26,978 nt of DNA from a virus: positions 1 to 26,978 of IMG/VR virus record IMGVR_UViG_3300020465_000075; one strand, written 5' to 3'. How positions within the stretch are numbered: the stretch's first letter is position 1; every line of letters starts with the position of its first letter. The translations under genes were made by a program, and so were the position numbers. The notes beneath the pieces are model-generated. The model was not told the DNA's origin, ran no database searches, and saw only the letters and a list, made by a program, of their open reading frames with translations. This document shows positions 14,870 through 17,346 of this stretch, piece by piece.

Positions 14870-14877
14870 TATTTATA
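14870..14877 (-). promoter_or_regulatory. T4-type late promoter, exact TATAAATA
   Basis: The minus strand reads TATAAATA from 14877 to 14870 and overlaps the stop of the 304 aa fibre gene. Predicted initiation near 14864 gives a leader of about 19 nt before ATG 14845, so the 763 and 1447 aa fibres can be transcribed on their own late in infection. Confidence 0.75.
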
Positions 14878-15787
14878 CGTTTACTGTCTGGCGTATTACT
14901 TTCAATGAAGCACTTGTGGCTGAACCCATTGTAACTTTAAGTTCCACGTTTGCTCCGTTAACAGCCGCAGTAAACGTGCCTAGAGTAGATCCACTTACTA
15001 GTGTGCCGTATTGTGTAATATAAGCATTTGTACCGTCATGTCCTACCATAACCTTACTGCTTTGAAAAGCAGAGCCCTGTGTGATTGCAATAAAGTATTC
15101 ACTTGCTCTAAAAGATGCTATAGCAAATGTATCTAATACTTGTATTGATGTAGAAGCTATAGTTGATCCAGCACTTGTGATATGACTGTCATTTGCACCA
15201 CTGCCCATTATTTTAAAAGTTGGAGTCATTAATGATGTAGTAACTGTTACATCAGCTGGTAGGCCAACTGTTACTGTATCTGTTGCACCTACAACAACTT
15301 CAACTTCGTTAGTAGTACCATTAAATGTAAGATTGTCTGTGCCAAGAGCCACTGCTTGTGTATTAGATGCACCATCAACAATGTTGAGTGTGGCCGCAGA
15401 AGCAGTATCTACATAATTTTTTGTAGCGGCATCTTGAGCCGCAACCGGATCGCCTAAGTTTTCTATTTTGCCTGTGCCTAGGTCTGCACTTTTTAACCAT
15501 GCTTTGCTCCAAGTTGCACCTGTTGTTCCTAACGAATATGTGTTATCACCATTTGGTCTAATGTTAGAACCTATGTCCGCGGCAAGATTAAGTGTGTCTG
15601 TATCAGCATCACCTAAACTAAGTGTACCACCATCTGCTGTGATATTACCTTTAACATATAATGCTTTCTCTACTAAGGCTCCACCTTTAAATTGAACTGA
15701 CGCTGTAGATACAGTTGCATCTGTTAAATCTTCAACTACTGATATTGTTGCTCCACTACCTGAAGCTGTTTTTCTGAAACTTGGCAT
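14873..15787 (-). CDS. Tail-fibre-like protein, 304 aa
   Basis: This short fibre-like protein begins MPSFRKTASGSGATIS. It contains a GNITADGGTLSLGDADTDTL module, a SLGTTGATWSKAW module and an LTFNGTTNEVEV module followed by VTVGLPADVTVT, the last nearly identical to a segment of the 1447 aa protein. Its C-terminal ~90 residues (SEYFIAI, VMVGHDGTNAYITQYGTLVSG) match the end of the 763 aa protein, defining a shared terminal domain. The start follows GGAG at 6 nt; an overlapping ATG at 15792-15790 is out of frame. A TAAATA-containing box and a terminator lie directly upstream, so a new transcript probably begins here. It may be an adaptor or short fibre. Fibre identity is well supported and exact location is not. 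Confidence 0.8.
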   Translation of the reverse strand: MPSFRKTASGSGATISVVEDLTDATVSTASVQFKGGALVEKALYVKGNITADGGTLSLGDADTDTLNLAADIGSNIRPNGDNTYSLGTTGATWSKAWLKSADLGTGKIENLGDPVAAQDAATKNYVDTASAATLNIVDGASNTQAVALGTDNLTFNGTTNEVEVVVGATDTVTVGLPADVTVTTSLMTPTFKIMGSGANDSHITSAGSTIASTSIQVLDTFAIASFRASEYFIAITQGSAFQSSKVMVGHDGTNAYITQYGTLVSGSTLGTFTAAVNGANVELKVTMGSATSASLKVIRQTVNV

Positions 15788-15806
15788 TGCATTCTCCTAC
15801 TAAGAG

Positions 15807-15814
15807 TATTTAGT
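15807..15814 (-). promoter_or_regulatory. Possible late promoter ACTAAATA
   Basis: The minus strand reads ACTAAATA from 15814 to 15807, two mismatches from the late consensus with the TAAATA core kept. It sits 19 nt before ATG 15787 and directly after a terminator hairpin, a common arrangement at a transcript boundary. Confidence 0.35.
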
Positions 15815-15842
15815 CAAAAAGGAAGGCACCCTAAGGCACCTT
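15815..15842 (-). terminator. Rho-independent terminator at the end of the candidate ncRNA
   Basis: On the minus strand AAGGTGCC (15842-15835) pairs with GGTGCCTT (15830-15823) around a TTAG loop. This is an 8 bp stem with two central G-U pairs, which form only in minus-strand RNA. CC and then five T follow. It ends the unit that starts at the promoter near 16113. Confidence 0.7.
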
Positions 15843-16079
15843 CGCAAACTTTAAAAAAAGGAGTTATTAGTGAGTAGGGAGGACTTTGGGTTCACCTCCA
15901 ACTAGATCGACCGAGATACCATTCTCATATCCTCTAGCACTTACTTCCGCCCGGGAGGGCGATGTGATTTTCAGTCGCTAAACCTTAAACCTGGCTACCA
16001 CGCCTAAGCAATCAAGTTATGCCTCTAGGTAAGACACGTTTCCTTGCACTACTCTAGTAAGACCGTCGCCTTGCTATAC
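15816..16079 (-). ncRNA. Candidate structured ncRNA, about 260 nt, unknown class
   Basis: No open frame of useful length occurs here on either strand. About 210 nt of the body is roughly 49% G+C by hand count, well above the AT-rich surroundings. It is bounded by a sigma-70-like promoter (16085-16113) and a terminator (15815-15842). Several hairpins are visible. One spans 15959-15978 (GCGA/TCGC enclosing TGA/TCA). One spans 15902-15937 (CTAGA/TCTAG enclosing GAGA/TCTC). One spans 15878-15899 (GGAGG/CCTCC). A possible long-range closing helix pairs GAGTAG (16054-16049) with CTACTC (15877-15872). It does not show tRNA, tmRNA, RNase P or group I intron hallmarks that I can recognise. An untranslated regulatory leader or a packaging/processing signal are alternatives. 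Confidence 0.5.
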
Positions 16080-16084
16080 TTATT

Positions 16085-16113
16085 AATATAGTACTTCTTA
16101 TACCAGAAGTCAA
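16085..16113 (-). promoter_or_regulatory. Sigma-70-like promoter TTGACT-17-TATATT
   Basis: The minus strand has TTGACT (16113-16108), exactly 17 nt, then TATATT (16090-16085). Each hexamer is one base from the bacterial consensus. Predicted start is near 16079. It lies just after the gp23 terminator and lacks the TATAAATA late box, so it could be read by host RNA polymerase early in infection, unlike the late genes on both sides. Confidence 0.55.
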
Positions 16114-16133
16114 CCTTTTTTTGTATCTTTTTT

Positions 16134-16167
16134 CAAAAAAAAATGGGCCACCGAAGTGACCCATTTT
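16134..16167 (-). terminator. gp23 rho-independent terminator with UUCG loop
   Basis: On the minus strand a 12 bp stem (AAAATGGGTCAC/GTGGCCCATTTT, one T·G pair) closes a TTCG tetraloop in the favourable C(UUCG)G context. A run of nine T follows, the first four inside the stem. It begins 22 nt after the gp23 stop. The plus-strand version also folds and could act on reverse transcripts. Confidence 0.9.
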
Positions 16168-16188
16168 GTAATATGGTATAACCAAAAC

Positions 16189-17346
16189 TTATGTAAAGCT
16201 AAGGTTACCGCTGTTGATTGTAATACCTTCAACATAGTCTGCCGCATTACCGAGCGATGAAGCTTGGTTGGACAATTCTGTGTAACCATATCGTGTCATA
16301 AATGAAACTACTGGTTCAAATGTTGATGGATCCATAACAACACCACTGCTCATCAATGGAATGTATGGGCAGTAATACGCTGGTGCGTCCATTTCGCCTG
16401 AGCCTTTGTAGCCTACCAATGCAACAGTTGAATCTGATGCATACTGGTCTGCGTACACTCTCATTGTACCGTTAAGAGTACCTACAAATTTTGTATTTGT
16501 TGGTGCTTCAAAAGGTCCTTCAGTTGTTCTTGCGAATGCTGAAGTTGTAGCTGACTGAAGAACAGTAAGCATTGCTGGTGATACTACCAAGTAGTTACCT
16601 GCGCCTCTTCTTGTTCTTGCGGCGATTAGATTTGCGGCTCTATTTACTAGAACTGCAAATGCGGCATGTTCGTCACCAACAAATGTAGCAGTACCTGATA
16701 CACCGGCCTGGTTGTATGTTAATGATGGTGTGCCTGCCAAGCTTCTAAGTGAAGCAAGGATTTCTTGATCGATTTCAGCAGTAATTTCTTGGGCTAGTGC
16801 CGCCATTACTTCTGCTTCGACGTCAATGCCATGCATTGAGTTGGCGTCTTGAGCCGCTTCAAAAGTCCAGCGAGCTGATAGCTTTCTGGTTTTTGCTTCG
16901 ACTGTTTGCTTTAGGATCTGGATGCTTAACTTTTTACCAGCTGTAGCTTCAAGTGTTGAAGTTGTATCAGCGGCGTTAGTTGATGCATTACCAGAATAAC
17001 CTGTTGCAATCAAGAATGGACTTAATGCCTCATCACCTGCAGTAGCTGAGTCAAAAGTTTCAGCATATCTTACTCTAAGTGTGTGGATCTGTCCGACTGG
17101 GCCTGTCATAGGCTGAACACCAACTAGCTCGTTAGCGATAACTGTTGGCATAACACGGCGAATGACTGGAAGGATAACTTTATTTAAAGTTGCAATATTA
17201 CCGGCCATTGTTGTGCCAGCAGATGCAGTCTCTGACAAATACTGCTTAGTATTTTCGAGAGTCTGTTCCATAACAACTTTTTTGTTACCTTCAAGACCAT
17301 CAACCAGTGCGTCTTTGGTTTCATTCCAATTTTCTGTAAGGTTCAT
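16189..17346 (-). CDS. 23: gp23 major capsid protein precursor
   Basis: gp23 forms the hexamers of the head shell. This 385 aa protein shows clear T4 gp23 signatures: GVQPMTGPVGQ, a VEAKTRKLSARWTFEAAQD segment, HGIDVEAEV, ITAEIDQEI, NYLVVSP and GVVMDPSTFEPVVSFMTRYGY. A gp21-type cleavage site LSE at residues 37-39 would remove a 39-residue propeptide; T4 removes 65. T4 gp23 has 521 residues, so this protein is notably short. It starts at ATG 17346 with AGGAG 8 nt before it, 15 nt after gp22, and is followed by a strong terminator. No gp24 vertex gene follows here, unlike T4. Identity is very secure. Confidence 0.97.
   Translation of the reverse strand: MNLTENWNETKDALVDGLEGNKKVVMEQTLENTKQYLSETASAGTTMAGNIATLNKVILPVIRRVMPTVIANELVGVQPMTGPVGQIHTLRVRYAETFDSATAGDEALSPFLIATGYSGNASTNAADTTSTLEATAGKKLSIQILKQTVEAKTRKLSARWTFEAAQDANSMHGIDVEAEVMAALAQEITAEIDQEILASLRSLAGTPSLTYNQAGVSGTATFVGDEHAAFAVLVNRAANLIAARTRRGAGNYLVVSPAMLTVLQSATTSAFARTTEGPFEAPTNTKFVGTLNGTMRVYADQYASDSTVALVGYKGSGEMDAPAYYCPYIPLMSSGVVMDPSTFEPVVSFMTRYGYTELSNQASSLGNAADYVEGITINSGNLSFT

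Follow-up and report, generated by a model that had tools for sequence, protein, structure and literature searches.

The ORF-free stretch behind the major capsid gene gp23 of an uncultivated phage contains a structured RNA of ∼208 nt (positions 16075–15868, minus strand) that is a member of a known family, manA (RF01745), as a divergent subfamily in a new genetic context. With a probability of roughly 0.7, we read the region as an autonomous RNA gene having its own promoter, a discrete transcript and its own terminator, in other words a trans-acting RNA ‘moron’. All positions refer to the window, the whole stretch of 26,978 nt of phage DNA that was analyzed. An Rfam scan of positions 15780–16200, a check proposed in an earlier sequence-only reading of this DNA, returned manA at model positions 1–192 with 61.3 bits (E 2.3e-15), above the gathering cut-off of 55.2 bits; that reading was therefore wrong in stating that the RNA matches no recognizable ncRNA class. 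The features of the locus, all on the minus strand, are:

16189–17346, minus strand: gp23 major capsid gene (phrog_138, E 8e-97), the conserved upstream neighbor of the RNA unit
16140–16167, minus strand: intrinsic terminator of gp23, read as shielding the RNA unit from upstream transcription
16085–16113, minus strand: sigma-70-type promoter, TTGACT-17-TATATT
15868–16075, minus strand: manA-family structured RNA (RF01745), supported by covariation
16049–16053, minus strand: 5′ strand of the closing helix, AGUAG, from the RF01745 alignment, with compensatory changes in homologues
15878–15899, minus strand: 3′ hairpin GGAGG/CCUCC, stacked on the closing helix and paired in 7/7 sequences
15873–15877, minus strand: 3′ strand of the closing helix, CUACU, from the RF01745 alignment, with covariation
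15822–15843, minus strand: intrinsic terminator of the RNA unit
15807–15813, minus strand: T4-type late promoter box CTAAATA, serving the next gene
14873–15787, minus strand: tail-fibre-like structural gene with weak PHROG tail/fibre matches and its own late box, the downstream neighbor

ORFs of at least 60 aa are absent from 15788–16188, and the stretch from 16113 to 15822 runs, as had been described, from its own promoter to its own terminator just after the gp23 terminator. The earlier figure of about 49% G+C also agrees with that of the RNA (0.49, against ∼0.36–0.46 for surrounding 250-nt windows), and no conserved small peptide, the finding named in advance as speaking against an RNA, was found in the region. 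The RNA-unit terminator reads GAAGGTGCC-TTAG-GGTGCCTTC-CTTTTT (15843–15822). Promoter-like sites are not above chance in the window (five found, 6.8 expected); the promoter of the RNA, proposed from the sequence and located here at 16113–16085, is the top intergenic sigma-70-type match, and we consider it credible because it is conserved at all 21 homologous loci compared with 2.0% of random positions. The neighboring genes have late-type promoters, in line with the previous description of a host-type promoter amid late genes: NATAAATA/CTAAATA boxes were detected 10–53 nt upstream of five predicted starts in the window. ARAGORN called no tRNA or tmRNA gene in the window.

A cmscan of the whole window against Rfam at gathering thresholds gave no match, and neither did an RF01745 search of the window's own record; the narrow scan found manA, which had been missed because of the fast first-look filters. 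In 50 viral contigs carrying near relatives of the window gp23, the RF01745 model gave 16 credible matches, six of them above the cut-off. A second model, R1, built from seven sequences and without cyanophage members, reciprocally finds cyanophage manA (E 1e-13 to 1e-23) in P-SSM2, P-SSM4, P-SSM3, S-TIM4, S-SSM5, P-TIM68, P-RSM6 and P-RSM3 as well as in contig copies. A near-identity search across phage records returned nothing. A match to SPO1-like Bacillus phages was rejected as RNA homology: it spans ∼65 nt around the promoter and includes only the first few nucleotides of the RNA, and is thus read as similarity between strong A-tract promoters.

The window RNA forms 53 of the 57 pairs of the RF01745 consensus structure. 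Covariation was assessed in seven sequences (the window, Pelagibacter phage Mosig and five contig copies) that were aligned without structure, the Rfam structure then being placed on the window row; pair counts cover nested helices only. In this set 85.4% of cells pair and both-sided, compensatory changes occur at 31/57 pairs. The covariation score is 0.459 compared with 0.198 for shuffled alignments, was reached by none of 500 shuffles, and lies far above all slid-structure controls, so that the covariation check advocated in the sequence-only reading came out strongly in favor of a conserved RNA. De novo consensus folds of the seven sequences and of a diverged set of ten gave largely the same architecture. 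The two subgroups were aligned separately, since a joint alignment of all 18 copies misplaced several helices. As the folding energy is unremarkable (z −0.90), support for the structure comes from covariation and not from thermodynamic stability. Among the hairpins suggested earlier, those at 15902–15937 and 15878–15899 belong to the conserved structure, whereas the one at 15959–15978 competes with a conserved helix; the long-range closing helix, then only a possibility, is conserved (16053–16049 with 15877–15873).

In relatives, the RNA keeps its place and its signals. All 16 credible RF01745 matches sit 96–1003 nt behind gp23. R1 recovers 27 copies among 93 loci, and each of the 25 copies with gp23 in view lies 95–999 nt downstream of it. 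A promoter with at least 9/12 matches, ending 5–14 nt before the RNA, is present at the equivalent site in 27/27 copies. When the flanks of 21 loci were compared with 3150 random positions of their own contigs, terminators were found within 80 nt after the RNA at 19/21 loci (4.6% of random positions) and late boxes within 90 nt at 20/21 (1.0%). There are two exceptions: at L256 the RNA is followed 6 nt later by a tRNA-Gly, then a terminator and then the late box, and at L227 the late box comes directly after the RNA. One copy (L277/L284) is antisense to gp23 and has a terminator-like hairpin behind it, with no sense ORF behind the RNA. The ORFs downstream are of at least three kinds (MPSFR..., MSSHINPDSG... 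and MGRP...).

Given its constant neighbor, the RNA might simply be a long 3′-UTR or processed spacer, a structured element of the gp23 transcript, or an insulator stabilizing or ending it, that has no role as an RNA in its own right, and its position behind gp23 is indeed kept in two distant capsid lineages. However, a promoter directly precedes the RNA in every copy, the gp23 terminator separates the two in the window, the distance between them varies about tenfold, one copy is antisense to gp23, and manA lies far from gp23 in other phages. We consider this explanation highly improbable.

Other structured RNAs occur at the same loci in relatives. In many of them the MGRP... gene that immediately follows the manA unit has a freshwater-2 RNA (RF02980) in its late-promoter leader (L262, 4540–4623, plus strand; L265, 9544–9627, plus strand; L287, 1429–1346, minus strand; also L283, L289–L292, L294, L295, L297 and L298); no such RNA was found in the window. 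Five relatives have a Glutamine riboswitch (RF01739) in the interval from gp23 to the manA unit (L262, 3972–4021, plus strand; and, on the minus strand, L283, 657–610; L285, 1622–1573; L287, 1993–1946; L295, 558–512).

The window gp23 is closest to jumbo-phage capsids (70% identity to Sinorhizobium phage Phosso, 67% to Vibrio phage 2.275.O and PA5oct). Among isolated phages, the ten whose gp23 is most similar (Phosso, Vibrio 2.275.O, PA5oct, XbC2, CBB, 121Q, SCTP-2, RaK2, Atu_ph07 and Munch) gave no RF01745 or R1 match under strict filters, which does not prove absence. Downstream sequence was examined in 62 gp23 relatives: the RNA was present in 23, and 39 had another gene or no RNA match directly behind gp23. 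Mapped on a 64-row gp23 tree, this patchy presence requires at least 16 changes, and two RNA subtypes interleave, the sister loci L232 and L246 carrying different ones. Since presence is patchy and the subtypes interleave, the distribution reads as gain, loss and swapping of a putative manA cassette at one site.

Such turnover would also be expected of a cassette that is selfish or a relic, in which case a mobile RNA element would persist at a hot spot while giving the phage no advantage. This seems improbable to us, because compensatory changes in most helices and the retention of the promoter in every copy indicate selection on the RNA. Phage morons are autonomous promoter–gene–terminator cassettes. 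The window cassette resembles them in having its own promoter and terminator and in its sporadic presence at one site, which does not track the phylogeny of its neighbors; it differs in encoding an RNA, whereas morons encode protein.

Beyond the window lineage, manA-like DNA was found in 37 phage records. The RNA of cyanophages such as P-SSM2, P-HM1 and S-TIM4 shares with that of the window a score above the cut-off, the same helix architecture, reciprocal matches and a strong sigma-70-type promoter at its 5′ end (at least 9/12 matches in 29/30 cyanophage-type contig copies). In P-HM1, MED4-213, S-TIM4 and S-SSM5 it also lies directly behind gp23, although these capsid proteins are just 30–34% identical to the window gp23, and P-HM1 and MED4-213 have the same order of promoter, RNA, terminator and late box. 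The differences lie in the core, which is CUGAAUAAACUU in cyanophages and CAAGGAA... in the window lineage, in the RF01745 score, 10 of the 16 credible matches of the window lineage falling below the cut-off, and in the surroundings, the window lineage having a terminator and late box directly after the RNA and a gp23 of the jumbo-phage type.

Mosig EXVC030M (MT647606, 108164–108371; RF01745, 64 bits) is the only named relative found through plain DNA similarity. Its manA is ∼70% identical to the window RNA and 78% to that of the sister locus L288, and has the same type of promoter. In contrast to the window RNA, it is not behind gp23 and precedes a rubrerythrin gene by ∼17–23 nt, with no terminator. 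Many cyanophage copies, like that of Mosig, lack a terminator and are followed after 11–60 nt by a sense ORF; other cyanophage contexts are mixed, with gp32-, thyX- and talC-like ORFs (named by eye from their N-termini) close behind.

Several further features were seen around manA copies. In 13/30 cyanophage-type contigs (e.g. L307 and L315) terminator and promoter are fused upstream of manA: the −35 box TTGACA is located inside a terminator-like hairpin, and the T-run of this hairpin makes up part of the promoter spacer. In 8/30 (L300, L302, L305, L306, L308, L310, L314 and L315) manA is directly followed by a conserved hairpin of ∼45 nt, AGACCTAAGATGCAACTC..GAGTGGGGCAGATGGTCT, in most cases with a T-run after it; scans of three of these loci against Rfam gave no match for it at E 0.05. 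A same-strand tRNA-Asn begins 3–7 nt after manA in L318 (L119) and L328 (L143), a tRNA-like sequence that ARAGORN did not call follows it in L326, and a same-strand tRNA-Thr lies just upstream in L093. This adjacency suggests that tRNA and manA may share processed transcripts. Hypothetical CDSs are annotated across manA in five cyanophage records, P-SSM4 (PSSM4_169.1; L341), P-HM1 (PHM1_121; L342), P-HM2 (PHM2_011/012; L343), S-SSM5 (SSSM5_127; L350) and S-TIM4 (ORF_135; L345), and are probably spurious.

manA is entered in Rfam as cis-regulatory and was described as a probable riboswitch by Weinberg et al. (2010; PMC2864571), raising the possibility that the window RNA is a riboswitch-like attenuator with a conditional terminator, through which sigma-70 transcripts would reach the downstream structural gene once a ligand is bound. 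In the window the next gene is collinear with the RNA and its terminator, and the many cyanophage copies close to an ORF fit such a leader. In the window lineage, however, a late box of its own precedes the next gene, the downstream genes differ between loci, and one copy is antisense and another is followed by a tRNA. Judging by sequence, co-transcription as a 5′-UTR is not supported, as a predicted terminator and a separate late box intervene in the window and in nearly all relatives. Nor is there an excess of pairing between the RNA and the terminator arms that could form an antiterminator (best complementarity 5.79 versus 5.74 for shuffled sequences, 19 loci). Because the terminator arms also vary freely and the next gene has its late box, we regard an attenuator as unlikely. 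An autonomous RNA unit is favored by its own signals, the antisense and tRNA-followed copies, the variable downstream genes and the patchy distribution. Since leader-like positions are real in cyanophages, this autonomy is firm for the window lineage only, and elsewhere in the family, where many cyanophage copies and that of Mosig adjoin ORFs without a terminator, manA may act as a leader.

We propose that a host-type (sigma-70) polymerase would start at the 5′ end of the manA RNA and stop at the RNA's own terminator, so that a discrete transcript of ∼250 nt would result; T4-type late boxes are found instead at the neighboring virion genes. From the type of promoter, early expression is plausible, and we infer that the RNA is made early or continuously and is stable. 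It would then be trans-acting, with a host protein or complex as its most likely binding partner, and would not serve to regulate the gene that follows. The target might belong to the translation or tRNA machinery; the occasional adjacency to tRNAs makes this the first place to look, and no more.

manA is known from T4-like cyanophages and marine metagenomes; Weinberg et al. drew a possible pseudoknot in it with a question mark (PMC2864571), and its structure was revised in Rfam 14 (PMC7779021). It is noted to lie often beside tRNAs (CMCompare, citing Rfam; PMC3692125), and cyanophage S-CREM1 carries it (PMC9964418). Our literature search on manA RNA found no report of expression, function, ligand or target. 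Judged from sequence, manA in the window lineage appears to be a free-standing RNA and not the catalogued switch before a protein gene. We give about even odds to a broader view, in which manA is misclassified and comprises early, stable, trans-acting phage RNAs that have a conserved host target and that cyanophages, a pelagiphage and jumbo-type phages carry as cassettes, either downstream of gp23 or within units containing tRNAs, the leader-like positions in cyanophages reflecting co-transcription of whatever follows. The family has been catalogued as cis-regulatory and a riboswitch candidate since 2010. If manA is free-standing in phages, the search for a ligand controlling the downstream gene would be misdirected, and the question would become which host or phage component manA binds, one that is directly testable in the cultured phages with manA behind gp23 (P-HM1, MED4-213, S-TIM4 and S-SSM5).
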